A stretch of 64,000 nt of DNA from Geodermatophilus tzadiensis (GTDB lineage Bacteria; Actinomycetota; Actinomycetes; Mycobacteriales; Geodermatophilaceae): assembly GCF_003002915.1 (NCBI RefSeq), contig NZ_PVTG01000002.1, positions 248,001 through 312,000 of the forward strand, given 5' to 3'. Each line of letters opens with the position of its first letter. Position 1 is the first letter of the stretch. Positions 11,411 through 62,313 of this stretch are shown here, piece by piece. The notes beneath the pieces are model-generated. The model made no database searches. It had not been told where the DNA came from and saw only the letters and a program-made list of their open reading frames with translations. A program made the translations under genes and the position numbers.

Positions 11411-11428
11411 GCCCTCGGCCGCTGGAAC

Positions 11429-11488
11429 GGCCCCCGTGCAGGGCCCCGCCGCGAGCGGAGCGAGGGGTGGGGGGCCCGGGGGTCCTTC
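11429..11488 (-). terminator. Long GGAAGGACC-type hairpin element (copy B)
   Basis: Read on the minus strand, this begins inside the stop codon of the aldo/keto reductase (TGAAGGACCCCC) and ends GGGGGCC. Its middle shares GCCCCCCAC, CGCTCCGC and GCGGGGCCCTGC with the copy at 28714. Outer arms pair as a hairpin, so a terminator role is likely. Confidence 0.6.
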
Positions 11489-12380
11489 ACAGGTCGACGT
11501 CGGGCTCGCCGGTGCCGCCGATGCGGTCGAGCTCCTGCAGCTCCACCGGCCCGAGCACCCGCGCCCCGGCCTGCAGGTTCTCCTCCAGGTGGGTCACCGA
11601 CGAGGTGCCGGGGATGAGCAGCAGGTTCGGCGAGCGAGCCAGCAGCCAGGCCAGCGCCACCTGCATCGGCGTGGTCTCCAGCCGCCGGGCCACGGTCTCC
11701 AGCGCCGCCGACTGCAGCGGCGTGAACCCGCCGAGCGGGAAGAACGGCACGTAGGCGATGCCCTCGCGGGCCAGCGCGTCGACCATCGCGTCGTCGTCGC
11801 GGTGCACGAGGTTGTAGTGGTTCTGCACGCACACCACCGGGGCGATCGACCGCGCCTCGGCGAACTGCTGCGTCGTCACGTTGGAGACGCCGAGGTGGCG
11901 GATCAGCCCCTGCTGCTGCAGCTCGGCGAGGGCCTCGAACGGCTCGGCGAGCGAGCGCTCCACCGGTGCGTCGAAGCCGGGCATCCGCAGGTTGACCACG
12001 TCGAGCACGTCGAGGCCGAGGTGGTCGAGGTTGTCCTGCACCGCGGAGCGCAGCTCGTCGGGGGAGAGCGCCTCGGGCCACCCGCCGTCGGGCGTCCGCC
12101 GGGCACCGACCTTGGTCACGATGGTCAGCTGCTCCGGATAGGGGTGCAGCGCCTCGCGGATGACCTCGTTGGTCACGTGCGGGCCGTAGTAGTCGCTGGT
12201 GTCGAGGTGGTCCACGCCGAGCTCGACGGCCCGGCGCAGCACGGCGACGGCGGCCGCGCGGTCGGCCGGCGGCCCCATGATGTCGGGGCCGGACAGCCGC
12301 ATCGCCCCGTAGCCGATCCGGTTGACCGTGCGGTCCCCGAGCGTGAACTGTCCTGACCGTTCGGCGGTCGTCGTCGTCAT
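11487..12380 (-). CDS. Aldo/keto reductase family oxidoreductase lacking the tetrad His
   Basis: The 297-residue protein has the AKR fold: IGYGAMRLSG, Asp/Tyr in HLDTSDYYGP and Lys in IVTKVGARR. The usual catalytic His strand reads VLDVVNLRMPG, with Asn in place of His. FIPGTSSVTHLEEN-like sequence (LLIPGTSSVTHLEEN) forms the NADP-binding end. It is clearly related to the gene at 47117 but that copy keeps His. The change is common in one actinobacterial branch and may alter substrate choice. The ATG at 12380 opens MTTTTAERSGQFTLG. Confidence 0.9.
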   Translation of the reverse strand: MTTTTAERSGQFTLGDRTVNRIGYGAMRLSGPDIMGPPADRAAAVAVLRRAVELGVDHLDTSDYYGPHVTNEVIREALHPYPEQLTIVTKVGARRTPDGGWPEALSPDELRSAVQDNLDHLGLDVLDVVNLRMPGFDAPVERSLAEPFEALAELQQQGLIRHLGVSNVTTQQFAEARSIAPVVCVQNHYNLVHRDDDAMVDALAREGIAYVPFFPLGGFTPLQSAALETVARRLETTPMQVALAWLLARSPNLLLIPGTSSVTHLEENLQAGARVLGPVELQELDRIGGTGEPDVDL

Positions 12381-15275: not shown

Positions 15276-16529
15276 ATGACCGAGCTCCACCCCGACCGCC
15301 TCCACGACGGAGGGGACCCCCGCACTCCCGCGTGCCGACCCTCCCGGCAGGCCACGGCGACGTCGCCCTCCCGGCTGCGTCTCCTGGTCCGGAAGGCGGC
15401 CCAGCGGAAGGCCCCGGAGCGACGTCAGGGGGAGGCGTCGTCGTCCGGGGAGACCGCCGCTGCCCCACCCGCCCCCCGTCCCGGTCCCCGACCGACGCCG
15501 CACCCGCGCCCGGAGCCGGCGCTCGAGGTGCTCGTCGTCCTCGACGTGGACACCGCCGCCGACGCCGCGGACGGCGCCCGCCCCGCGGACGTCGTCGACG
15601 AGGTCCGTGCCGCCGAGCCGGTCACCGACGTCGCCGCGCTCGTCGAGGCCGCCGACGCCCAGGCCCTGGCCGCCGTCGCCCCCGGTGCCGTCGCCCCCGG
15701 TGACGTCGCCCCCGGTGACGTCGAGTCGTCCGCTCCCGGGCCGGCCACCGCCCCGGAGGTCACCGCCGAGCGGCGCCGTCCCCGGCGGTTGCGGGTCCCG
15801 CGTCGCCGCGCGGCCTGCTACCTCGCCGCGGCGCTGGTCGGTGCCACGGGCCTCGGTGCCTCCACCGCCGGTGGCGGGATCGCGCAGGCCGGCGGCCCCC
15901 GGCCGGTCAGCCACTCGGTGAGCGTGGCCGAGGAGCTCGGCATCGCCGGCACCGACCCGTCGGCCGACGCGCGGGCCGCGACGATCCGGTCCGACGCCGC
16001 GGTGATGCTCGGCGAGGTCACCGCCAGCCGCACCGCCCGCGAGGCCGAGCAGGCCGCCGCCGCCGAGGCGCAGGCCGAGGCCGACCGGGTGGCGGCGGAG
16101 GCCGCCGCGGCCGCCGCCGCGGAGGCGGCCCGCCCGAGGACCGTGCTCCCCGTGGCCGGTGCCCGGCTGACCAGCGGCTTCGGTGCCCGCTGGGGCAGCG
16201 TGCACGCCGGCATCGACCTGGCCGCCCCGATGCTCACCCCCGAGTACGCGGCCGCCGACGGCGTCGTCCTGGAGGCCGGCCCGGCCAGCGGCTACGGCAA
16301 CGTCGTGTACGTCCAGCACGAGAACGGCGACGTCACCGTCTACGGGCACATGGAGGAGATCCTCGTGCAGCCCGGACAGGTCGTCCGCGCCGGCGACACG
16401 ATCGCGCTGCTGGGCAACCGGGGCCAGTCCACCGGCCCGCACCTGCACTTCGAGGTGCACGTCGGCGGGATCGGCGGCGAGAAGATCGACCCCGTCCCGT
16501 GGCTGCGCGACCGCGGCGTGGCCATCTAG
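15276..16529 (+). CDS. Membrane-anchored M23 (LytM-type) peptidase
   Basis: The 417-residue protein has a long, disordered, Arg/Pro- then Asp/Ala-rich N-terminal region (1-175), a basic stretch and one membrane span (about 180-198), an Ala/Glu-rich helix (about 245-285), and a C-terminal M23 domain (287-417). Zinc ligands are visible: His310 and Asp314 in HAGIDLA and His391 in HLHFEV. Such enzymes cut peptidoglycan cross-bridges or act as LytM-type activators; with the ligands intact, hydrolysis is likely. The ATG at 15276 has GGAAG about 10 nt upstream. The N-terminal region contains a 15-bp DNA repeat. Confidence 0.85.
   Translation: MTELHPDRLHDGGDPRTPACRPSRQATATSPSRLRLLVRKAAQRKAPERRQGEASSSGETAAAPPAPRPGPRPTPHPRPEPALEVLVVLDVDTAADAADGARPADVVDEVRAAEPVTDVAALVEAADAQALAAVAPGAVAPGDVAPGDVESSAPGPATAPEVTAERRRPRRLRVPRRRAACYLAAALVGATGLGASTAGGGIAQAGGPRPVSHSVSVAEELGIAGTDPSADARAATIRSDAAVMLGEVTASRTAREAEQAAAAEAQAEADRVAAEAAAAAAAEAARPRTVLPVAGARLTSGFGARWGSVHAGIDLAAPMLTPEYAAADGVVLEAGPASGYGNVVYVQHENGDVTVYGHMEEILVQPGQVVRAGDTIALLGNRGQSTGPHLHFEVHVGGIGGEKIDPVPWLRDRGVAI
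15672..15723 (+). repeat. 15-bp tandem repeat, about 3.5 copies, inside M23 gene
   Basis: The units GCCGTCGCCCCCGGT, GCCGTCGCCCCCGGT and GACGTCGCCCCCGGT are followed by a partial unit. They encode the pentapeptide repeat (A/D)VAPG in the cytoplasmic disordered region. The repeat keeps frame, so copy number could vary without breaking the gene. Confidence 0.85.
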
Positions 16530-16583
16530 GGAAGGACCCCCCCTCCCGGCAGGTCCGGGCAGGGGGCGGCGCCGTCCGGGGGA
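16530..16583 (+). terminator. GGAAGGACC-type element after M23 gene (degenerate)
   Basis: GGGAAGGACCCCCCC begins right after the TAG stop, as in the other copies of this element, and is followed by GTCCGGGGG around 16574. Pairing is imperfect, so it is listed as a likely but degenerate copy. Confidence 0.35.
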
Positions 16584-16605: not shown

Positions 16606-17523
16606 ATGGGAGCCGGGCACGGGCACGACCACGGCACCGCCGCGGGCGCGTCCCGCGGGCGGCTGGCCGTCGTCCTGGCGCTGACGGTGGCCGTCCTGGT
16701 CGCCGAGGTGGTCGGGTCGCTGGTGTCGGGGTCGCTGGCGCTGCTCGCCGACGCCGGGCACATGGCCACCGACGCGCTCGGCGTGGGGCTCGCCCTCGGC
16801 GCGGTCACCCTCGCCCAGCGCCCGGCCCGCGGACGGCGGACGTTCGGCTGGCAGCGGGTGGAGATCCTCGCCGCGGTCGCCAACGGTCTGCTGCTGGCCG
16901 CGGTGGCGGTGGTCGTGGTGGTCGAGGCCGTCCGCCGGGTCGGCGACCCGCCCGAGATCGACGCCGGCGTGGTGCTCGCCGTCGCCGCGGCGGGCCTGGC
17001 CGCCAACCTCGCCGGGCTGGCGCTGCTGCACCGCGGCCGCCGCGACTCCCTCGCCGTCCGCGGCGCGCACCTGGAGCTCCTCGGGGACGCGCTCGGGTCG
17101 ATCGCGGTCCTGGTCGCCGGCGGCGTCGTCGCCGTCACCGGGTGGACGCCGGCGGACACGATCGGCGCGCTGCTGGTCGGCTGCCTGGTCCTGCCGCGTG
17201 CGTGGTCGCTGCTGCGCGAGTCGCTCGACGTCCTGCTGGAGGCCGCGCCCCGCGACGTCGACCTCGACGAGGTGCGCGCGCACGTGCTCAGCGTCGCGGG
17301 CGTCATCGGCGTCCACGACCTGCACGCCTGGACGATCACCTCCGGCCTGCCGGTGCTCTCCGCGCACGTCGTCGTCACCGACGAGGCGCTGGCCGCCGGG
17401 CACGGTGGGCGGGTGCTCGACGCCCTCGGCAGCTGTCTGGGCGCCCACTTCGACGTCGCCCACTGCACCTTCCAGATCGAGGCCGAGGCGCACGCCGGCC
17501 ACGAGGCCCCCGTCCACGACTGA
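16606..17523 (+). CDS. Cation diffusion facilitator (CzcD/ZitB-like)
   Basis: This 305-residue protein has a His-rich start (GAGHGHDHG), six membrane spans and a cytoplasmic C-terminal domain. The metal site in spans 2 and 5 is visible as LADAGHMATD and HLELLGDALGS (the two HxxxD-type pairs). The C-terminal VIGVHDLHAWTITSG is the usual regulatory zinc-binding region. It exports Zn2+, Co2+ or similar ions in exchange for protons. The ATG at 16606 follows GGGGAGG. It is followed by a short hairpin and then the CtaG gene. Confidence 0.95.
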   Translation: MGAGHGHDHGTAAGASRGRLAVVLALTVAVLVAEVVGSLVSGSLALLADAGHMATDALGVGLALGAVTLAQRPARGRRTFGWQRVEILAAVANGLLLAAVAVVVVVEAVRRVGDPPEIDAGVVLAVAAAGLAANLAGLALLHRGRRDSLAVRGAHLELLGDALGSIAVLVAGGVVAVTGWTPADTIGALLVGCLVLPRAWSLLRESLDVLLEAAPRDVDLDEVRAHVLSVAGVIGVHDLHAWTITSGLPVLSAHVVVTDEALAAGHGGRVLDALGSCLGAHFDVAHCTFQIEAEAHAGHEAPVHD

Positions 17524-17525
17524 GA

Positions 17526-17543
17526 GGACCCCGCAGAGGGGCC
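17526..17543 (+). terminator. Short hairpin after CDF gene
   Basis: GGACCCC, GCAGA, GGGGCCC: a small stem beginning 2 nt after the TGA stop, matching the start of the recurring GGACCC element. Confidence 0.35.
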
Positions 17544-17604
17544 CGCTCCACCGCGTCAGGAGTGGGACAGTGGAGGACGAACGCGGACGAGACCGGAGGT
17601 AGGG

Positions 17605-20342: not shown

Positions 20343-21193
20343 GCCGGCGGCCCTGGCCGCCGCGGGCGGTGGCGCTGCTCGCCTGCCCGGTCTGCGGGCA
20401 GCGGCTGGCGGCCCTGCCCGGCGACGCCGGGCTGCGCTGTCCGGCCGGGCACGCCTTCGACCGCGCGCGCCAGGGACACGTGACGCTGCTGCCGCCGGGC
20501 CACACGCCACCGTCGGGCGATACCGCCGCGATGGTGGCCGACCGGGCCGAGGTCCTCTCGGCGGGCACGTTCGCCGGACTGACCCGGGTCCTGGCCGACG
20601 TCGTCGCCGCGGGGGACGGTCCCGTCGACGCCGTCCTCGACCTCGGCGGCGGCACCGGCCACCACCTCGCCGGCGTCCTCGACCGGCTGCCCTCGGCGGT
20701 CGGCGTGGTGCTCGACTCGTCGCGCTACGCGGCCCGCCGGGCGGCCGGGGCCTCGCCCCGCGCCCTGGCCGTCGTGGCCGACACGTGGGCGCGGCTGCCG
20801 GTCCGCGACGCCGCCGTCGACCGGGTCACGGTGGTCTTCGCCCCGCGCAACGGCCCGGAGACCGCGCGGGTGCTGCGCCCCGGCGGCCGACTGGTGGTGG
20901 CCACCCCCGCACCCGACCACCTCGCCGAGCTGGTCGGCCCCCTGGGCCTGCTGCGGGTCGACCCGGACAAGGCGGCGCGGCTGTCGGCGTCGCTGGAGCC
21001 GCACCTTGCCCCGGCCGGGGGAGCGGCGCACCGGGAGGTGCTCGAGCTGGACCACCGGACGGTGACGACCGTCGTCGGCATGGGTCCGCACGCCCGGCAC
21101 CTGACCCGGGAGCGGCTCGCCGCGGCCGTGGGGGAGCTGCCGGAGCGGGTGCGGGTGACGCTCGCCGTCGACGTCACCACCTGGACGGTCTGA
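20339..21193 (+). CDS. RlmA-type 23S rRNA (guanine-N1) methyltransferase
   Basis: The 284-residue protein starts with a zinc ribbon made by Cys16, Cys19, Cys34 and His38 (LLACPVCGQ, RCPAGHAFD), followed by ARQGHVTLLPPGH, GDTAAMVADRAEVLSAG and the SAM motif LDLGGGTGHHLAG. This is the layout of RlmA(I)/RlmA(II)/TlrB, which methylate G745 or G748 of 23S rRNA; TlrB confers tylosin resistance. Actinobacterial members are usually the G748 type, so that is the better guess. It ends the phosphoesterase-MFS operon; coupling with a transporter could hint at drug tolerance. Confidence 0.88.
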   Translation: MSRRPWPPRAVALLACPVCGQRLAALPGDAGLRCPAGHAFDRARQGHVTLLPPGHTPPSGDTAAMVADRAEVLSAGTFAGLTRVLADVVAAGDGPVDAVLDLGGGTGHHLAGVLDRLPSAVGVVLDSSRYAARRAAGASPRALAVVADTWARLPVRDAAVDRVTVVFAPRNGPETARVLRPGGRLVVATPAPDHLAELVGPLGLLRVDPDKAARLSASLEPHLAPAGGAAHREVLELDHRTVTTVVGMGPHARHLTRERLAAAVGELPERVRVTLAVDVTTWTV

Positions 21194-21204
21194 CCCCGGG
21201 GACG

Positions 21205-21240
21205 CAGCAGGGGCCCGGCCGACCGGCCGGGCCCCTGCTG
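21205..21240. terminator. Perfect 16-bp stem-loop between convergent genes
   Basis: CAGCAGGGGCCCGGCC pairs perfectly with GGCCGGGCCCCTGCTG around a GACC loop, 11 nt after the methyltransferase stop and 57 nt past the GlsB-like gene on the other strand. It probably stops transcription in both directions. Confidence 0.85.
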
Positions 21241-21296: not shown

Positions 21297-21578
21297 TCAG
21301 ACGTGCGTGCGGTGGCTGCGTCCCCGCGTGGCGAAGACGTACACCAGCAGCACCACGATGGCGCCGATGATCGAGCCGATGATCCCGGCGGTGCCGAGCT
21401 CGAAGCCGCGGCCGCTGATGAGGCTGCCGAGCAGGTTCCCGACGAAGGAGCCGATGATGCCGAGCACGATCGTCATGCCGACGCTCATGGACTGCTTGCC
21501 GGGGACGACGGCCCGCGCGATGAAGCCGGCGATCGCACCGACCACGATCAGCACGATGATGTTCCAGAGCAGATCCAC
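21297..21578 (-). CDS. GlsB/YeaQ/YmgE family stress membrane protein
   Basis: The 93-residue protein has three Gly-rich membrane spans typical of the transglycosylase-associated (Transgly_assoc) family: IIVLIVVGAIAGFIARAVVPG, SVGMTIVLGIIGSFVGNLLG and GIIGSIIGAIVVLLVYVF. The family is induced by stress in many bacteria; its mechanism is unknown. The GTG at 21578 has CAGGAGG 6 nt upstream. A possible SigB/SigF-type promoter lies about 70-95 nt further upstream. Confidence 0.9.
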   Translation of the reverse strand: MDLLWNIIVLIVVGAIAGFIARAVVPGKQSMSVGMTIVLGIIGSFVGNLLGSLISGRGFELGTAGIIGSIIGAIVVLLVYVFATRGRSHRTHV

Positions 21579-21792: not shown

Positions 21793-23550
21793 GTGACGAT
21801 CGCGCCTGCACCGATCGTGAGCCGGCCGAGCCCGGCTCGCGAGGTCCAGCGGGGTGCGCGGCTCTCGAACCTGCTGCGGACCACGGACCACAAGACCATC
21901 GGCCTGATGTACATGGCCACCTCGTTCCTCTGGTTCGTCGTGGCCGGGTTCATGGCCATGCTGATCCGCGGTGAGCTGGGCCAGCCGGGACTGCAGTTCC
22001 TGTCGCCCGAGCAGTACAACCAGCTCGTCACGATGCACGGCACGGTCATGCTGCTGATGTTCGCGACGCCGCTGTTCTTCGCGTTCTCGAACCTGATCAT
22101 GCCGCTGCAGATCGGCGCGCCCGACGTGGCGTTCCCGCGGCTGAACGCGTTCTCCTACTGGTTGTTCCTGTTCGGCAGCCTGATGCTCATCAGCGGGTTC
22201 TTCACGCCCGGTGGCGCGGCCGACTTCGGCTGGTACGCCTACGCCCCGCTGTCCGACGTCGTGCACAGCCCCGGCGTGGGCGCGAACCTGTGGTTCGCCG
22301 GGCTCGCCGTCAGCGGGCTGGGCACCATCCTCGGCGCGGTCAACTTCATCACCACGATCGCCTGCCTGCGGGCGCCGGGCATGACCCTGTTCCGGATGCC
22401 GATCTTCACCTGGAACACCCTGGTCACCAGCCTGCTGGTGCTCTTCGCGTTCCCGATCCTCACCGCGGCACTGCTCGCGATGCTGGCCGACCGCAACCTC
22501 GGCGCCCTCGTCTTCTCCGACGAGAACGGCGGCCCGATGCTGTGGCAGCACCTGTTCTGGTTCTTCGGCCACCCCGAGGTCTACATCATCGCCCTGCCGT
22601 TCTTCGGCATCATCACCGAGATCATTCCGGTGTTCTCGCGCAAGCCGCTGTTCGGCTACAAGGGCATGGTCGCCGCCACCCTGCTCATCGGGGGCCTGTC
22701 CCTGGCGGTGTGGGCGCACCACATGTTCGCGACCGGCGCCATCCTGCTGCCGTTCTTCTCGTTCATGACCTACCTGATCGCCGTGCCGACCGGCATCAAG
22801 TTCTTCAACTGGATCGGCACCATGTGGCGCGGCCAGATCACCTTCGAGACGCCGATGCTGTTCTCGGTCGGCTTCCTGGTGACCTTCCTCCTGGGCGGCC
22901 TGACCGGCGTCCTGCTCGGCAGCCCGCCGCTGGACTGGCACGTCAACGACAGCTACTTCGTCGTCGCCCACTTCCACTACGTCGTCTTCGGCACCGTCGT
23001 GTTCGCCGCCTACGCCGGCATCTACTTCTGGTTCCCGAAGATGGCCGGCCGGATGATGGACGAGCGGCTGGGCAAGCTGCACTTCTGGCTGACCTTCATC
23101 GGCTTCCACGCGACGTTCCTGGTGCAGCACTGGCTGGGCACGCAGGGGATGCCGCGCCGGTACGTGGACTACCTGCCCACCGACGGGTTCACCACGCTGC
23201 ACGTGATCTCGACGATCGGTTCGTTCGTCCTCGGCGCCTCGACCATCCCGTTCCTCTACAACGTGGCCAAGTCGTGGAAGTACGGCCGGCTCGCGCTGCG
23301 CGACGACCCGTGGGGCCACGGCAACTCGCTGGAGTGGGCGACGTCGTCCCCGCCGCCGCGGCACAACTTCACCGAGATCCCGCGGATCCGGTCGGAGCGC
23401 CCCGCGTTTGAGGCGCACTACCCGCACCTCATCGAGCGGCTCCAGCGCGAGGCGCACGTGGGCAAGCGGCACGAGCCCTACGCCGGTGTCAGCGAGCTGG
23501 CCGGCGACTCCGGTCCCCGTCAGGGCCCGAACGACCCCGACCCGTTCTGA
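21793..23550 (+). CDS. ctaD: Cytochrome c oxidase subunit I (aa3 type)
   Basis: The 585-residue, 12-span subunit holds heme a and the heme a3-CuB centre. Ligands are all visible: heme a His in TMHGTVMLL and VAHFHYV, CuB His with its cross-linked Tyr in [10 protein letters not shown], the CuB His pair in WAHHMF and heme a3 His in VAHFHY. It reduces O2 to water and pumps protons, the last step of respiration. The actinobacterial C-terminal tail ([12 protein letters not shown]) is present. It starts with GTG behind a leaderless-type -10 and ends with two hairpins. CtaG at 17605 would help mature it. Confidence 0.98.
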
Positions 23551-23582
23551 GGAAGGACCCTCCCCTGCAGGAGGGTCGTTCC
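23551..23582 (+). terminator. GGAAGGACCC hairpin after ctaD (copy D)
   Basis: GGAAGGACCCTCC and GGAGGGTCGTTCC pair over 13 positions with one mismatch around CCTGCA. The element starts immediately after the ctaD stop codon. Confidence 0.8.
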
Positions 23583-23595
23583 AGCACGTCACCTG

Positions 23596-23702: not shown

Positions 23703-24974
23703 GTGTCGCTCGACCCCGCTCCCCGCACCCCGCCGGCGACCGCCGCGCCCGGCCCCCGCGCGCTGCTGACGGTCACCGGCGCGGACCGGCCCGGGGTCAC
23801 CGCCCGGCTCTTCGCCGCGCTCGCCGAGGGGACCGACGGGATCCCGCCGGTCGAGGTGGTCGACGTCGAGCAGGTCGTCGTGCACGGGCACCTGGTCCTC
23901 GGCGTGGTCCTGGGCAGCGTGCCGGTCGAGGGGCCGGCCGGCGGGGCCGCCGAGGAGGCCGCCTTCCTCGCCGGGCTGGGGCGCCTCGCCGCCGGGGTCG
24001 CCGCGGCCACCGGCGTCCAGGTGGAGGTCGAGTCGGCGTCCGACCCCGGCCCGGGAGCCGCCCGCGGGGGGCGCCCGCACCACGTGATCCTGCTCGGCCG
24101 GCCGGTGCCGCCCGGCGCGGTCGCCGGTGCGGCCACCGCCATCGCCGGCGTGGGCGGCAACATCGACGCGATCCGGCGGCTCTCGGACTACCCGGTCACC
24201 AGCTTCGAGCTCACCGTCTCCGGCGCCGAGGCCACGGCGCTGCGCACCGCGCTCGGCGCCGTCGCCGCCGGCACCGGCGCCGACATCGCCGTCGAGCAGG
24301 TGGGCCTGGCCCGGCGCAGCAAGCGGCTGATCGTGCTCGACGTCGACTCCACGCTGGTCCGCGGCGAGGTCATCGACGAGCTCGCCGCCCGCGCCGGTCG
24401 CGCCGCCGAGGTCGCCCGCATCACCGCCGCGGCGATGAACGGCGAGCTGGACTTCGCCGAGTCGCTGCGCGCCCGCGTGGGCACGCTGGCCGGGCTGCCG
24501 GTGGAGGTGCTCGACGAGGTCCGCGAGCACCTCGAGCTCACCCCCGGCGCCCGCACGCTCATCCGGACCCTCCAGCGGCTGGGCTTCCGCTGCGGCGTCG
24601 TCAGCGGCGGCTTCAGCCAGATCACCGACCCGCTCGCCGCCTCCCTGGGCCTGGACTTCGCCGCGGCCAACACCCTCGAGGTGGCCGACGGGAAGCTCAC
24701 CGGCGGGCTGGTCGGCGAGATCGTCGACCGCGCCGGCAAGGCCCGGGCCCTGGCCCGCTTCGCCGCCGAGCACGGCATCCCGCTCGACCAGACAGTGGCC
24801 GTCGGCGACGGCGCCAACGACCTCGACATGCTCAACGCCGCCGGGCTGGGCATCGCCTTCAACGCCAAGCCGGTTGTGCGCGAGCAGGCGCACACCGCGC
24901 TCAACCAGCCCTACCTGGACGCCGTCCTGCAGGTCCTCGGCTTCACGCGGGACGAGGTGCTGGAAGCGCAGTGA
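23703..24974 (+). CDS. serB: Phosphoserine phosphatase with N-terminal ACT-like domains
   Basis: The 423-residue enzyme has two ACT-type regulatory halves (LLTVTGADRPGVTARLFAAL, then HHVILLGRPVPPGAVAG...GGNIDAIRRLSDYP), followed by a HAD phosphatase domain. Motif I is LDVDSTLVRGEVIDELA (nucleophile Asp about residue 213), motif II GVVSGGFSQI and motif IV VAVGDGANDLDML. It makes L-serine from phosphoserine in the cytoplasm, and serine is a cysteine precursor used by the CysM route here. The GTG at 23703 follows CACGAT by 6 nt; a GTG at 23685 would add six residues. Confidence 0.96.
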   Translation: MSLDPAPRTPPATAAPGPRALLTVTGADRPGVTARLFAALAEGTDGIPPVEVVDVEQVVVHGHLVLGVVLGSVPVEGPAGGAAEEAAFLAGLGRLAAGVAAATGVQVEVESASDPGPGAARGGRPHHVILLGRPVPPGAVAGAATAIAGVGGNIDAIRRLSDYPVTSFELTVSGAEATALRTALGAVAAGTGADIAVEQVGLARRSKRLIVLDVDSTLVRGEVIDELAARAGRAAEVARITAAAMNGELDFAESLRARVGTLAGLPVEVLDEVREHLELTPGARTLIRTLQRLGFRCGVVSGGFSQITDPLAASLGLDFAAANTLEVADGKLTGGLVGEIVDRAGKARALARFAAEHGIPLDQTVAVGDGANDLDMLNAAGLGIAFNAKPVVREQAHTALNQPYLDAVLQVLGFTRDEVLEAQ

Positions 24975-25123
24975 GCTGTGACATCGCCGTCCTCCGGACG
25001 GCACCGCGGCCAGGTACCGTCCCCGGGCTGCGCTGAGCCCAGCCGTCGCACCCGGCGGGGACCCTCCGGGCCCGCCACCGGGCACGACCACTCGCAGGGG
25101 CGGCTCACCTCGAGGCGGCTCCC

Positions 25124-28239: not shown

Positions 28240-28713
28240 GTGCTGCGCATCGACCGCGCGACCTACGACGCCATCGTGGCCCACGCCCGGGAGGACCACC
28301 CGGACGAGGCCTGTGGCGTCGTCGCCGGCCCCGAGGGCAGCGACCGGCCCGAGCGGTTCCTCCCGATGCTCAACGCCGCGCGGTCGCCCACGTTCTACGA
28401 GTTCGACTCCGGTGACCTGCTGCGGCTGTACCGGGACATGGACGACCGGGACGAGGAGCCGGTGGTCGTCTACCACTCGCACACCGCCACCGAGGCGTTC
28501 CCCTCGCGGACCGACGTCAGCTACGCGTCCGAGCCGAACGCGCACTACGTGCTCGTCTCCACCCGCCACCACGGGGAGCGGACCGGGCTCGAGGGCGACG
28601 ACGTCGAGTTCCGCAGCTTCCGGATCGTCGACGGGCAGGTGACCGAGGAGGACGTCGAGGTCGTCGAGTCCTACCTGTTCGGCCACTCGCCGACCACCGT
28701 CGTCTACGACTGA
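28240..28713 (+). CDS. mec: Mec: JAMM/Mov34-type CysO-cysteine peptidase (M67)
   Basis: The 157-residue metallopeptidase has the full JAMM site: Glu23 in HPDEACGVV and H79-x-H81-x7-S89-x2-D92 in YHSHTATEAFPSRTD. In M. tuberculosis Mec hydrolyses the CysO-cysteine adduct to release cysteine. Here it lies directly before cysO and cysM, the same order as mycobacteria. The start is GTG behind TAGACT. A hairpin element of the GGAAGGACC family lies between it and cysO, so it may be partly uncoupled from them. Confidence 0.95.
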   Translation: MLRIDRATYDAIVAHAREDHPDEACGVVAGPEGSDRPERFLPMLNAARSPTFYEFDSGDLLRLYRDMDDRDEEPVVVYHSHTATEAFPSRTDVSYASEPNAHYVLVSTRHHGERTGLEGDDVEFRSFRIVDGQVTEEDVEVVESYLFGHSPTTVVYD

Positions 28714-28774
28714 GGAAGGACCCCCTCGCCCCCCACGACGCGCTCCGCGCGCCGCGGGGCCCTGCGAGGGGGCC
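28714..28774 (+). terminator. Long GGAAGGACC-type hairpin element (copy A)
   Basis: The element starts right after the mec stop. Outer arms GGACCCCCTCGC and GCGAGGGGGCC pair with one bulge. The interior (GCCCCCCAC, CGCTCCGC, GCGGGGCCCTGC) is shared with the inverted copy at 11429-11488. It probably acts as a terminator or transcript-end structure. Confidence 0.7.
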
Positions 28775-28881
28775 AGCCGTCCGGAATGGCCCGCGCTCGT
28801 CGGGCGTTGCCCGCACCGACACCCGCCGCACCGACGGCGTCCCCGCACGTCCCGACCCCTTCTTGAGGAGAACCGCACACC

Positions 28882-43714: not shown

Positions 43715-43795
43715 TGCGGGAGGCGGGAGTCGAACCCGCACGCCCGGAGGCACCAGATCCTAAGTCTGGCGTGGCTGCCGTTACACCACTCCCGC
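43715..43795 (-). tRNA. tRNA-Leu (anticodon UAG)
   Basis: Read on the minus strand the gene has a 7-bp acceptor stem GCGGGAG/CTCCCGC, a D arm GTG/CAC, the anticodon stem CCAGA/TCTGG with loop CTTAGGA (anticodon TAG), a long variable region as expected for leucine, and T arm GCGGG-TTCGACT-CCCGC. It has discriminator A and no encoded CCA. It decodes CUA and probably other CUN codons. It lies between the DUF6929-like gene and the DUF3618 gene. Confidence 0.95.
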
Positions 43796-47116: not shown

Positions 47117-47971
47117 ATGACCACCGCATCCCTGAGCGACACCTTCGCCATCGGCGGCGACCTGACCGTCCACCGGCTCGGCTACGGCGCCATGCAGCTG
47201 CCCGGCCCGGGCGTCTGGGGCGAGCCGGCCGACCGCGACGGCGCCCTGGCCGTGCTGCGCGCCGCCGTCGAGCAGGGCGTCGACCTCATCGACACCGCCG
47301 ACTCCTACGGCCCCCTCGTCAGCGAGCAGCTCATCGCCGAGGCGCTGCACCCCTACCCGGAGGGCCTGGTCGTCGCGACCAAGGCCGGCCTCACCCGCCA
47401 GGGGCCGGGCATCTGGACGCCGGTCGGCCGTCCCGCCTACCTCAGGCAGCAGGTCGAGCTGTCGCTGCGGCACCTGCGGGTCGAGCGGATCGACCTCATC
47501 CAGCTGCACCGCATCGACCCCGACGTGCCGCTGGCCGACCAGCTCGGCGCCTTCCGGGAGCTGCAGGAGGAGGGCAAGGTGCGCCACATCGGCGTCTCGG
47601 AGGTGTCCGTCGCCGAGCTGGAGGCCGCCCGCGAGATCGTCGACGTCGTCAGCGTGCAGAACCTCTACAACCTCACCAACCGCCAGTCGCAGGACGTTCT
47701 CGACCACGCCACCGAGCACGGCATCGCGTTCATCCCGTGGTTCCCGATCGCCACGGGCGACCTGGCCGCGCCCGACAGCCCGGTGGCCGACATCGCCCGC
47801 GAGCTGGACGCCACCCCGGCGCAGGTGGCGCTGGCCTGGCTGCTGCAGAAGTCGCCGGTCGTGCTGCCCATCCCGGGCACCAAGTCGGTCGACCACCTGA
47901 CGGAGAACATGGGCGCGGCCCGGCTGAGCCTCTCGCCCGAGGACGTGGCCCGGCTGGACGCGCTGGCCTGA
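47117..47971 (+). CDS. Aldo/keto reductase
   Basis: The 284-residue protein shares the layout of the gene at 11487 ([21 protein letters not shown] against IGYGAMRLSGPDIMGPPADRA) and keeps the full tetrad: Asp and Tyr in [10 protein letters not shown], Lys in VVATKAGL and His in [23 protein letters not shown] is the NADP-binding end. It reduces small carbonyl substrates. The ATG at 47117 begins [15 protein letters not shown]. It is divergent from the histidine phosphatase and followed by a short hairpin. Confidence 0.93.
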
Positions 47972-47972
47972 G

Positions 47973-47996
47973 GGAGGACCCTCCGCAGGGCCGGTC
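47973..47996 (+). terminator. Short GGAGGACCC hairpin after aldo/keto reductase
   Basis: GGACCCTCC, GCAGGGCCGGTC begins 2 nt after the TGA stop and overlaps the end of the convergent STAS gene. It is an abbreviated member of the GGAAGGACCC family; pairing is partial. Confidence 0.35.
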
Positions 47997-48492
47997 AGCG
48001 GGAGCGGCGCAGCGGGACCGTCGGTCCCCACACGCCGTCGACGGTGAGGCCGGCGCTGCGGCGGGGGCGGGCCGGCGGCCGCGACCGCCGCGTCTCCGGG
48101 GGTGAGCCCGGCAGGATCGCGACCGGTTGGGTGTCGTTGGCCCGGTGCGGCCGCGGCCGCACCGGGTCCTGGCCGGTCAGGGGGCCGTCGAGCTCGAGGT
48201 GCTCGGCCAGGCCCGTCTCGGACACCAGCCGCCGGGTGGCCGCCGGCGCGCCGACGAGGCGCAGCCGGCGTCCGGCGGCGGCCATGGCGTCGCTGAAGCC
48301 GGCGAGGGCCTCGAGGGCCGAGCCGTCGCAGAAGCGGGCGCCTGCCACGTCGACCACGATGCTGGCGGTGCCGTGTCCGGCGGCCGTGGTGAGCGCCGGG
48401 ACGAGCCGGGGGAGGGTGGGACGGCCGGCGTCGCCGGTGAGACGGACGACCACCTGGTCGGGTGCGGGGACGACGGCGACGGAGAGGTGCAC
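47995..48492 (-). CDS. STAS-domain protein (anti-sigma factor antagonist-like)
   Basis: The 165-residue protein has a STAS fold in its first 105 residues: VVVRLTGDAGRPTLPRLVPAL, SIVVDVAGARFCDGSALEALAGF and LRLVGAPAATRRLVSETGLAEHL. The Ser in CDGSAL is where SpoIIAA/RsbV-type proteins are phosphorylated. The last 55 residues are Arg/Pro-rich and unconserved. It may switch a partner anti-sigma kinase, but none is in view. The GTG at 48492 has GGAGG 6 nt upstream. Confidence 0.85.
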   Translation of the reverse strand: MHLSVAVVPAPDQVVVRLTGDAGRPTLPRLVPALTTAAGHGTASIVVDVAGARFCDGSALEALAGFSDAMAAAGRRLRLVGAPAATRRLVSETGLAEHLELDGPLTGQDPVRPRPHRANDTQPVAILPGSPPETRRSRPPARPRRSAGLTVDGVWGPTVPLRRSR

Positions 48493-48660: not shown

Positions 48661-49815
48661 GTGGACGCCGAGGACTTCACGCAGATCCGGGACGCCGTTC
48701 GCCAGCTGGTGCGGGAGGTGGTCGTCCCGCGCGAGGAGGAGATCGACCTGCACGACCGCATCCCCGAGGAGCTGCGCGGCGCGGCCGCCGACATGGGGCT
48801 GTTCGGCTACGCGCTGCCCGAGGAGTACGGCGGCCTGGGCGTCGACATGCGCGAGGACGTCGAGCTGGCCTTCGAGTTCGGCTACACGACGCCGGCGTTC
48901 CGCTCGCTGTTCGGCACCAACAACGGCATCGCCGGACAGGTGATCGCCCGCTTCGGCAGCGAGGAGCAGAAGAAGACGTACCTGCCGCGGCTGGCCGCCG
49001 GCGAGCTGATCGGCTCCTTCGCCCTCACCGAGGCCGAGGCCGGCTCCGACCCGGCGGGGCTGCGGACCAGCGCGCGCCGCGACGGCGACGGGTGGGTGCT
49101 CAACGGCGCCAAGCGCTACATCACCAACGCGCCGCTGGCCGACCTCTTCGTCGTCTTCGCCCGCACCGACCCGGCGGAGAAGGGCGGGCGGGGCATCTCC
49201 AGCTTCGTGGTCGACGCCCGGGCGCCCGGTGTCTCGCTCGGGGCGAAGGACGTCAAGATGGGCCAGTCGGGGGCGTGGACGTCGGAGGTGTTCTTCGACG
49301 ACGTGCGCGTGCCGGCCGACGCGCTGGTCGGCGAGGAGGGCCGCGGCTACGCCAAGGCACTGACCGTGCTCTCCCGCGGCCGGCTGCACATCGCCGCGCT
49401 GTGCGTCGGGATGGCGCAGCGGGTGCTCGACGAGTCGGTGGCCTACGCCGCCACCGCCGAGCAGGGCGGCGCCCCGATCGGGCGGTTCCAGCTGGTGCAG
49501 GCGCTCATCGCCGACACGCACGCCGAGACGCTCGCCGGGCGGGCCATGGTGCGCGAGGTGGCGGCCCGCTACGACTCCGGTGAGGACACCTCGATCGGCC
49601 CGTCGTCGGCCAAGCTGTGGTGCAGCGAGATGGTCGGCCGGGCCACCGACCGCGCCGTCCAGGTGCACGGCGGTCTGGGCTACCTGCGCACCACGCCGGT
49701 CGAGCGCTTCTACCGCGACGCCCGCCTGTACCGGCTGTACGAGGGCACCAGCGAGGTGCAGCGGGTGATCGTCGGCGGTGGGTTGCTGCGCGCGGCCGGC
49801 ATGCCCCGTGACTGA
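48661..49815 (+). CDS. Acyl-CoA dehydrogenase
   Basis: The 384-residue FAD enzyme has LTEAEAGSDPAGLRTSARRDGDGWVLNG-type flavin and substrate binding (the core EAEAGSD), GYAKALTVLSRGRLHIAA, the FAD motif QVHGGLGY and the catalytic-base segment LYEGTSEVQRVIV. It introduces the alpha-beta double bond in acyl-CoA during fatty-acid or branched-chain oxidation. The chain-length class is not clear. CACCAT lies 6 nt before the GTG at 48661. A long hairpin element follows, then a hotdog thioesterase. Confidence 0.95.
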   Translation: MDAEDFTQIRDAVRQLVREVVVPREEEIDLHDRIPEELRGAAADMGLFGYALPEEYGGLGVDMREDVELAFEFGYTTPAFRSLFGTNNGIAGQVIARFGSEEQKKTYLPRLAAGELIGSFALTEAEAGSDPAGLRTSARRDGDGWVLNGAKRYITNAPLADLFVVFARTDPAEKGGRGISSFVVDARAPGVSLGAKDVKMGQSGAWTSEVFFDDVRVPADALVGEEGRGYAKALTVLSRGRLHIAALCVGMAQRVLDESVAYAATAEQGGAPIGRFQLVQALIADTHAETLAGRAMVREVAARYDSGEDTSIGPSSAKLWCSEMVGRATDRAVQVHGGLGYLRTTPVERFYRDARLYRLYEGTSEVQRVIVGGGLLRAAGMPRD

Positions 49816-49816
49816 C

Positions 49817-49906
49817 GAAGGGCCCTCCTGCCCCCCATCCCTCGCTGTCCCCCGCGAGCGGGGGGTACCCCCAGCTCGGGGCGGGCCCCTGCAGGAGGGC
49901 CGTCCC
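49817..49906 (+). terminator. Long GGAAGGACC-type hairpin element (copy C)
   Basis: Beginning 2 nt after the acyl-CoA dehydrogenase stop, GGGCCCTCCTGC pairs with GCAGGAGGGCC near the end. GCCCCCCA and CTCGCTG in the interior match copies A and B, with an added GC-rich arm (CCCGCGAGCGGGGGG). It lies in the gap before the thioesterase and sits inside the longest possible frame of that gene. Confidence 0.65.
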
Positions 49907-49945
49907 AGCCTGTCACCGGAGGAGCGGGCGGCCCGCCGGGTCCCG

Positions 49946-60654: not shown

Positions 60655-62313
60655 TCAGACGGTCGCCAGGCCCTCGTGCAGGCTCCCACCGCGGGCCTGC
60701 GAGCGGTGGGGGGCACGAGGGTCCTCCTGGGGGCGGGCGAGCAGCCGGGCCACCGCGGGGGCGACGTCGGCGGCGCGGGTCAGGACGGCGGCGACGTGGG
60801 CGTCGGGGCGGAGCACCCAGGCCTCGCCGGGGCGGGCGCCCAGGGCCTCGTGGAGCAGGCCGGTGCCGTCGAGGTCGGTCATGCGGTGCACGGACACGGG
60901 CAGCCCGTCGGAGGCAGGCAGCTCGGGGACCGGGGCGTCGTCGCCGACCAGGACGGTGACGCCCTCGCGGGCCAGCTGCCGCAGCCGGACGACGTCGGGT
61001 CGGCCGGCGACGGTCACCGGACAGTCGGGTACGAGCACGCCGGGTGCGGGCACCGGGACGTCGCCGCGGGGCGGGCGGCCCGGGAACGGGCGTCCCGGGT
61101 CAGGGGTGGTCAGCGGCGAGTCGACGTACCAGAACGGCTCGGCCAGCCGGCCGGAGTCGACCTGGCCGCGGGCCGCGAGGTCGGTGGCCGCCCGCTCGAG
61201 GACGTCGAGCCGGTGGCGCGCCTCCTCCTCGGTGCGGGGCACCAGGAAGCGCATCGTCGCGGTGGTGACGTCGACGTTCTCCTGCGCCGCGGCGTGCCGC
61301 TCGGCGTGGTAGCTCTCCAGCAGCTCCTCGGGCGCCCAGCCGTGCCGGACGAAGGCGATCTTCCACGCGGCGTTCTCGGCGTCCAGGACGCCGGAGTTCA
61401 GGCCGCGGGCGCCGAAGGGGGAGACCAGGTGCGCGGCGTCCCCGGCGACCAGCACCCGCCCCACCCGCATGCGGTCGACCAGCCGGGAGTGGAAGCGGTA
61501 GACCGACTTCCACACGATCTCGTAGGGCCGGTCGCCGACGACCTGGCGGATCCGCCGGTCCAGCCCGCCCGAGGACTCCTCGGCGGCCAGGTCGAAGTCC
61601 GGCGGCACCTGCCAGTCGATGCGGAAGGTGGAGTCCGGGCAGGGGTGGATGAGCACCTGCCGGCCGGGGTTCCACCCCGGGTCGAAGTAGAAGCGCCGCT
61701 CGGACTCCCAGCCGGGCAGGTCGGTGCGGACGTCGCAGATGAGGAAGTGGTCCTCGAAGGACTCCCCGGGGAAGGAGAGCCCGAGCATCGAGCGGAGGGC
61801 GTCGCTGCGGGGGCCGGGGCAGGCGACGGCGTGCGTGCCGGTCACCCGCACCTCGCCGTCGGTCGTCTCGCAGGTGACGGTGACGCCGTCGCCGTCCTGC
61901 TCGAGGGCGGTGACCCGGTGCCCCCAGCGGACGTCGACGAGCGGCGAGGCGGCGATCCGCTCGTCGAGCAGGGCCTCGGTCTCGCACTGGGAGATGTTCA
62001 CGAAGGGCGGGAAGGGGGACCGGCCGCGGTCGGCGAAGGTGAAGCTGAACACCTCGTGGTCGCGGTGGAAGGTCCGGGCGGTGGTCCAGGTGACGCCGCG
62101 GCGGGCCACTTCGGCGCCGACGCCGACGGAGTCCCAGACGTCGAGGACGTCGCGCTGCTGGCAGATGGCCTTGCTGCCGATCGGGTCGCGCCCAGGCCGC
62201 GCGTCGAGGACGACGACGGGCAGTCCCCAGCGGGCCAGCAGCAGGGCGGCGGTCTGGCCGACCGGGCCGGCGCCCAGGACGAGCACCGGCGGACCGGGGA
62301 GGGGAGCGGTCAT
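60655..62313 (-). CDS. FAD-dependent aromatic monooxygenase (MhpA/PheA-like)
   Basis: The 552-residue group A flavoprotein hydroxylase has the dinucleotide motif LVLGAGPVGQTAALLLARWG (residues 11-30), the Arg/Gln segment GSKAICQQRDVLDVW, the second FAD motif VLVAGDAAHLVSPFGARGLNSG and a C-terminal thioredoxin-like region. It resembles 3-(3-hydroxyphenyl)propionate hydroxylase. Its place before hmgA suggests it makes homogentisate from a hydroxyphenylacetate; that is inference. The last roughly 22 residues are encoded by a copy of the dispersed hairpin element. It follows the MBL gene by 18 nt. Confidence 0.92.
   Translation of the reverse strand: MTAPLPGPPVLVLGAGPVGQTAALLLARWGLPVVVLDARPGRDPIGSKAICQQRDVLDVWDSVGVGAEVARRGVTWTTARTFHRDHEVFSFTFADRGRSPFPPFVNISQCETEALLDERIAASPLVDVRWGHRVTALEQDGDGVTVTCETTDGEVRVTGTHAVACPGPRSDALRSMLGLSFPGESFEDHFLICDVRTDLPGWESERRFYFDPGWNPGRQVLIHPCPDSTFRIDWQVPPDFDLAAEESSGGLDRRIRQVVGDRPYEIVWKSVYRFHSRLVDRMRVGRVLVAGDAAHLVSPFGARGLNSGVLDAENAAWKIAFVRHGWAPEELLESYHAERHAAAQENVDVTTATMRFLVPRTEEEARHRLDVLERAATDLAARGQVDSGRLAEPFWYVDSPLTTPDPGRPFPGRPPRGDVPVPAPGVLVPDCPVTVAGRPDVVRLRQLAREGVTVLVGDDAPVPELPASDGLPVSVHRMTDLDGTGLLHEALGARPGEAWVLRPDAHVAAVLTRAADVAPAVARLLARPQEDPRAPHRSQARGGSLHEGLATV
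60669..60726 (-). repeat. Long GGAAGGACC-type element inside the monooxygenase 3' end (copy H)
   Basis: On the minus strand GGACCCTCGTGC near the start pairs with GCACGAGGGCC near the end. The interior GCCCCCCACCGCTCGC and GCGGTGGG repeats the layout of copies A-C. Unlike the others it lies before the stop codon and is translated. Confidence 0.65.

Follow-up and report, generated by a model that had tools for sequence, protein, structure and literature searches.

A hairpin repeat of Geodermatophilaceae at gene 3' ends: a probably mobile element and candidate terminator facing back at the gene

Dispersed palindromes of bacteria are usually labelled REPs or terminators, and the choice between selfish spread and function is left undecided. 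TRIT, described by a covariance model in the RNIE work, is reportedly a lineage-specific repeated terminator-like family of Mycobacterium tuberculosis; the hairpin repeat analyzed here is likewise a lineage-specific, terminator-like family with a covariance model, and we set the two side by side by description only. With intrinsic (Rho-independent) terminators our repeat shares a GC-rich hairpin and a U-containing tail, located on the strand opposite the abutting gene. It differs from them in being one sequence family with turnover between species, in its bulged two-part stem and short UUC tail, and in the overlap of this tail with the stop codon of another gene; its terminator role is a predicted one. 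Like MITEs and similar short non-autonomous mobile elements it is structured, polymorphic between relatives and nested, but no target duplication was recognised when filled and empty orthologous ends were compared by eye, and it has no known parent transposon. REP and REPIN elements, as one account describes them (PMC3733652), are short palindromic extragenic repeats with over 100 copies, variation among relatives, variable stems and no gene of their own, and our repeat is alike in all of these. It differs from them in carrying the core GAAGGACC beside the stem, not a GTAG or CGTC tag, in its longer two-part hairpin, in being locked to stop codons in one orientation, and in the lack of a Y1 transposase in 26 genus genomes. 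Among the titles and abstracts listed in searches of open-licence papers, none reported such a repeat in Geodermatophilaceae.

The original prediction placed four long copies and several shorter relatives in the window, that is, the whole 64,000-nucleotide stretch of Geodermatophilus tzadiensis DNA that was analysed. The four long copies are present (Table 1), with covariance-model scores of 68.1–78.0 bits; the next best score is 23.9 bits (23548–23586), and the background of the model in the window probably starts at about 13–17 bits. The shorter relatives fared unequally. The one at 23551 is a degenerate copy, because four relatives (G006, G002, G004 and G080) carry long copies at the same COX1 gene end. 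Those at 17526 and 16530 are probably remnants of full copies, which stand at these two ends in 5 of 11 and 3 of 11 genomes, respectively. The one at 47973 is doubtful; at this end no clear same-strand copy was seen in 10 relatives, two of which (G019 and G004) aligned to another gene. A start at the stop codon in gene orientation holds for three of the four long copies, and the fourth lies inside an open reading frame. The copy at 49813–49910 is absent from G006 and others and present in G002, G019 and G023. The closing stems re-pair, as had been proposed, with one blemish: a G.A mismatch interrupts the variable stem part of the 11429 copy, whose fold is no better than that of shuffled sequences (z −0.18; the other three long copies, −3.51, −1.60 and −2.58). 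The window and five 20-kb stretches, 164 kb together, contain 5 long copies, and all but one of these belong to the window. At the gathering score the repeat matches no Rfam family, and the sole Rfam match in the window is a tRNA gene at 43715–43795 (−). A conserved GC-rich hairpin at 21205–21239 (GGGGCCCGGCC...GGCCGGGCCCC), kept in the relatives compared, lies between the convergent genes 20369–21193 and 21297–21578; it looks like an ordinary bidirectional terminator outside the repeat family. Another repeat, CACCGCGGCCAGGT(A/G)CCGTCC..., lies at about 25000–25030, 3' of a stop at 24974, and recurs at the same end in relatives; a shorter string, CACCGCGGCCAGGTGCC, is found immediately upstream of two hairpin copies elsewhere (L154 and L180).

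Table 1. Copies and candidate relatives of the hairpin repeat in the window.
Feature	Position	Strand	Score (bits)	Context
Long copy (index copy)	28711..28783	+	77.9	Abuts mec (Prok-JAB) stop at 28713; end filled in 9/11 genomes
Long copy	11420..11492	-	78.0	At stop of aldo/keto reductase gene 11487-12380 (-)
Long copy, centre 27 nt longer	49813..49910	+	68.1	3' of acyl-CoA dehydrogenase stop at 49815
Long copy, stop-rule exception	60660..60731	-	68.8	Within final ~25 codons of ORF 60655-62286 (-)
Short degenerate copy, inner part missing	23548..23586	+	23.9	3' of COX1 stop
Probable remnant	16527..16577	+	14.0, near background	3' of stop of gene 15528-16529
Probable remnant	17521..17548	+		Short hairpin; 3' of stop of gene 16606-17523
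Doubtful short relative	47969..48001	+	15.0, near background	3' of stop at 47971

The covariance model was trained on 12 copies (four from the window, eight from elsewhere in the genome), the alignment of which gives a structure of 20 pairs; in 9 of these, both sides are changed in one or more copies. Because the four window copies belong to the training set, independent support comes from the whole-genome searches. In the own genome (4.87 Mb, 36 contigs) the model gave at least 149 matches at E ≤ 0.1 among the best 150 of 14315 candidates scored, rather than fewer than about ten, and blastn with one copy gave at least 41 matches (best 40 of 141 candidates scored). The hairpin repeat family is therefore genuine and far bigger than four copies. 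It was matched in all 25 genomes of the genus and in 101 of the 112 of the family (own included in both; E ≤ 1e-6 for the family), covering 9 of 12 genera; the members without a match are the genera g21–g23 (9 genomes) together with G041 and G069, whose genera are otherwise positive. None of 16 genomes from other families of the order was matched, nor any of 295 other genomes in a class sample given mostly without names or families, in which a copy-rich member of Geodermatophilaceae, if included, would have been detected. A relaxed search (E ≤ 1) of low-copy genomes gave no match in G041 or G088, one weak match in G069, 3 in G057, 4 in G091 and 9, 5 of them weak, in G047. Many congeners of these genomes hold at least 42 copies, so that the range within one genus runs from 0 to at least 42; by eye, at least 5 of 8 loci inspected in low-copy genomes have a stop at the usual offset. 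Carriage by phages or plasmids was rejected, since one copy had no match in 72,556 plasmid and 50,697 phage records and one repeat pattern had no exact match in viral contigs. At L146 (G000:C9:94073-94378) the repeat is arrayed in tandem, one unit every 63 nt or so, and may be a VNTR.

A full copy measures about 70–80 nt and reads, in gene-sense order, as the stop codon, GNNGAAGGACC, a variable 5-bp stem part, GCCCCCCAC plus an inner hairpin, CCCTGC, the complementary variable part, GGCC and GTTCCAGCACGTCACC. The own-genome alignment holds 118 copies (E ≤ 1e-6, from the best 100 sources) and that of the relatives 81, one of them truncated at the end of its stretch. Cells are paired in 97.0% and 95.9% of cases, respectively, with double changes in 11 and 13 of the 20 pairs. 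Double-changed cells number 243 versus 58 after shuffling in the own copies (at most 31 in slid controls) and 176 versus 52 in the relatives' copies (at most 28), beyond all 500 shuffles; relatedness among the copies and the fitting of the alignments to the model tilt the test toward structure, but the margin is nonetheless large. The covariation that had been expected is thus statistically supported. Most variation falls in the 5 nt between GGACC and GC, which occur in 30 versions among the 112 parsable copies of the 143 described below and are perfectly paired in 85 of these 112. Of the 38 copy pairs that agree throughout the inner sequence, 27 differ at two or more of the five variable positions (71%; all pairs, 78%) and 8 are identical there (21%; all pairs, 7%). 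Therefore, the stem arms change together and are only weakly linked to the remaining sequence.

The position of the repeat relative to genes was read from 143 own copies, which are model matches in retrieved stretches picked from the best of a longer match list, with one duplicate (L012 2876), three partial or weak matches (L146 1347, L019 1406 and L010 2290) and one reverse of another match (L210 1715) left out and L218 19243 added. Genes were called by a codon-usage script trained on 8 Pfam-supported genes. In 107 copies the core GAAGGACC falls −3 to +3 nt from where a sense stop ends, against 0.76 expected for random positions in these loci, and the positional bias suspected from the window thereby extends to the genome. 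In relatives, 65 of 97 copies stand at a sense stop, a count that is not one of independent cases since many are orthologous; this set of 97 leaves out L229 6727, L228 19938, L255 12853 and L062 13687, and also L040 (three), L041, L042 (two) and L046 (two), presumed duplicates of G021, G019, G002 and G009. Stop type tracks the offset: TGA is found at −2 (16/16) and +1 (59/60), TAG at −1 (9/10) and +2 (9/11), and TAA at −3 (3/4) and +3 (2/2), with offset 0 (TGA 3, TAG 1) breaking the rule. Therefore, letters of the repeat form part of the host stop codon. Genes with a copy use TGA 81, TAG 20 and TAA 6 times, and those without use them 124, 17 and 0 times. We rejected a mere preference for TGA letters as the reason for the lock, since among the 36 copies away from a called sense stop only one (L202) has TGA at +1, the commonest class; however, 13 of the 36 have some stop triplet at −3 to +3 (random, 5.7%), and some may belong to genes missed by the caller.

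At the COX1 end, long copies go with TAA (G006), TAG (G002 and G004) or TGA (G080) and copy-free sites have TGA; at the 17523 end the pattern is partly reversed, TGA accompanying filled sites and TAG three sites without a full copy. Given these opposed patterns, the insertion model is a tentative one: the lock may arise by insertion at the stop, or by loss of the useless gap between a stop and a terminator that selection retains. The far end of the repeat also touches stop codons. TCACC stands exactly 11 nt 3' of GGCC in 27 of 143 copies (chance, anywhere in the next 24 nt, 4.2%), and of 46 convergent genes nearby, 6 terminate precisely there, their stop being a TCA in or at the repeat. Convergent gene pairs are not enriched (41/107 with a copy versus 60/156), and tight tandem junctions are under-used (9/107 versus 30/156, p 0.02).

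Orthologous gene ends show turnover. Among 44 ends covered by at least six genomes, 9 are filled in at least one genome and none in all, with degenerate copies scored as not filled; apart from the mec end, filled ends are filled in 1 to 5 genomes. Between the own genome and G006 (mean gene identity 94.6%), 55 ends were compared, of which 1 is filled in both, 2 in the own genome only and 5 in G006 only. In named family genomes with a readable end (L049, L050 and L057 were unreadable there), the mec-cysO gap is filled in 10 (Klenkia terrae, four Geodermatophilus, two Modestobacter and three Blastococcus) and empty in 13 (six Blastococcus, five Modestobacter and two family MAGs). Many of the family mec-cysO gaps inspected also contain GGAAT-N15-GGCGTT, at 28783–28808 in the window, which we take to resemble a SigR/ECF-type promoter; the 28711–28783 copy therefore lies between the mec stop and the likely cysO promoter. 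The cysM end is filled in 4 of 11 genomes (G006, G009, G001 and G023), and there the copy lies between cysM and the following gene; in the window these two genes overlap. Nested copies, inserted after GCCCCCC, are found at own loci L137, L179 and L130 and also in G006 and G002, and by eye several copies with intact tails are followed by the 3' half of another copy. Because orthologous ends are polymorphic, copies are nested and copy number varies so widely inside one genus, the repeat is most probably a dispersed, mobile and non-autonomous element, and the small mobile element listed among the options of the original prediction is supported by these patterns and by the tandem arrays. From them we infer transposition. 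A REP served by a RAYT, another of the options, was not supported: there are many extragenic palindromic copies, mostly at gene ends, but the 5' flank consensus GNNGAAGG has no GTAG or CGTC tag (a minority of copies carry CGTC some 9 nt away from the stem, within the intact 3' tail consensus), and the Y1 transposase (RAYT) family PF01797 was found in 0 of 26 genus genomes, with the positive control found in 5 of 14 named genomes.

The covariation agrees with the proposal that structure is kept, but the better-kept fold lies opposite the gene and probably not on the mRNA strand. Over the 20 pairs read in the sense direction, A.C-type cells outnumber G.U-type cells by 50 to 14 in the own copies (20 of the 50 at one pair) and by 36 to 11 in the relatives'; the outer helix by itself shows no significant excess (17 to 9, p 0.17, and 12 to 6, p 0.24). 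An apposition in the inner stem, outside the model, is A.C in 95, G-C in 16, A-T in 6 and T.C in 1 of 118 own copies, and A.C in 56, G-C in 18, A-T in 2, G.T in 1 and others in 2 of the relatives' (79 of 81 rows); on the opposite strand A.C, G-C and A-T become T.G, C-G and T-A. Folding stability favours the strand opposite the gene in 142 of 143 copies; after correction for composition, by z-scores versus shuffles, that strand is still ahead in 114 of the 143. These strand tests are not independent, and shared ancestry makes their p-values too good. We consider it very likely that the kept structure belongs to the opposite strand; the asymmetry therefore points to a fold formed there, as RNA arriving from the other side or as single-stranded DNA.

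Single-stranded DNA is the basis of the best surviving alternative, in which the repeat would be a purely selfish, REP-like hairpin, one strand of which is read by some recombinase, gene ends being merely tolerated and transcription playing no part. The asymmetry persists with DNA folding parameters (opposite strand more stable in 138/143 own and 90/97 relatives' copies), and the wide range of copy number within one genus and the copies that part cysM from its neighbour suit this idea, which we regard as possible though rather unlikely. The Y1 transposase family is missing from all 26 genus genomes, and the repeat follows no strict fork-strand rule: in G013, with dnaA set at the start and the terminus at half the chromosome, 98 of 150 copies lie on the presumed leading strand (a raw share of copies), and strictly replication-strand-directed insertion was rejected on this count. 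The selfish hairpin also leaves unexplained the exact stop lock and the UU adjacent to the stem. The AA of GAAGGACC, which are the most conserved unpaired letters (76% and 93%), become this UU on the opposite strand.

Taking a tail as U-rich when at least 3 U fall in the 8 nt after the stem, the cut-off used for Streptomyces clavuligerus ends in one report (PMC8269248), 103 of 143 copies have such a tail on the opposite strand and 9 of 143 on the sense strand (random, 5.3%). The opposite-strand tail, which is not a continuous U run, is U-rich in 82 of 107 copies at a sense stop and 21 of 36 elsewhere. The anatomy of an intrinsic terminator, with its U-rich tract, is thus present on the opposite strand, while the repeated terminator of the original prediction does not hold in the sense orientation. 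We dropped the latter as the main reading, given the missing U-tract, the A.C rather than G.U cells on the sense strand and the more stable opposite fold. A related but improbable alternative is that the hairpin serves the abutting gene's own 3' end, as a U-less terminator or exonuclease block, and was spread or homogenised as useful; the sense orientation directly 3' of stops and the under-use of tight tandem junctions are in keeping with it, and U-lacking structured 3' ends are common in S. clavuligerus, 353 of 535 structured ends in the account given there (PMC8269248). The rarity of sense G.U relative to A.C, the fixed A.C apposition and the scarcity of sense U tails speak against it, as does the repression by ribosomes of E. 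coli terminators just 3' of a stop, described in one study (PMC4824070), which may not apply in this phylum. Least probable of all is that old terminators at fixed ends, without transposition, were lost in some lineages and homogenised by gene conversion or quasi-palindrome repair that also kept their arms complementary, for although the mec-end variable part CCCTC is common to the window, G002, G019, G004 and Klenkia terrae, and variable-part mismatches show no sense G.U bias (G.U 8 versus A.C 18), as repair would yield, nested copies and copies trailed by another's 3' half require insertion, and the closest relative shares a single filled end.

We therefore return to the reading of the repeat as a family-wide, non-autonomous, probably mobile element acting as a candidate intrinsic terminator that faces back at gene 3' ends, to which, as a whole, we give roughly even chances. 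On this reading the repeat enters at, or is retained at, the precise 3' end of a gene, where its initial letters make up part of the host stop codon. Read on the opposite strand, a GC-rich hairpin is followed by GGUCCUUC and by the complement of the stop codon, and together these have the anatomy of an intrinsic terminator directed back toward the gene. Its likely action would be to halt antisense or convergent transcription at the gene end. The support at the level of sequence comprises copy number, stop lock, presence and absence at orthologous ends, nesting, covariation, strand asymmetry and the U-rich opposite-strand tail; from it we infer termination activity and a benefit to the host. 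A terminator of opposing transcripts might predict an enrichment of convergent pairs, which is not seen, and we hold the terminator action to be about as probable as its absence because of this, though tight tandem junctions are under-used. More tentatively, the repeat could be a mobile element with a stop-codon niche, whose own first letters complete the host stop, whose base-paired variable part is a tag with co-changing arms, and which works as a portable terminator shielding the gene 3' end from transcription of the other strand, with a stop codon at both its ends in some convergent pairs.

In this one repeat family, some orthologous sites are filled and others empty, the landing position is bound to the reading frame, and the two strands differ in a way that indicates which one's structure is kept. 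Should our reading be confirmed, a mobile repeat would be tied to how GC-rich actinobacteria control antisense transcription and could serve as a source of natural terminators for them, and the stop codons of many genes would be partly made of repeat sequence.
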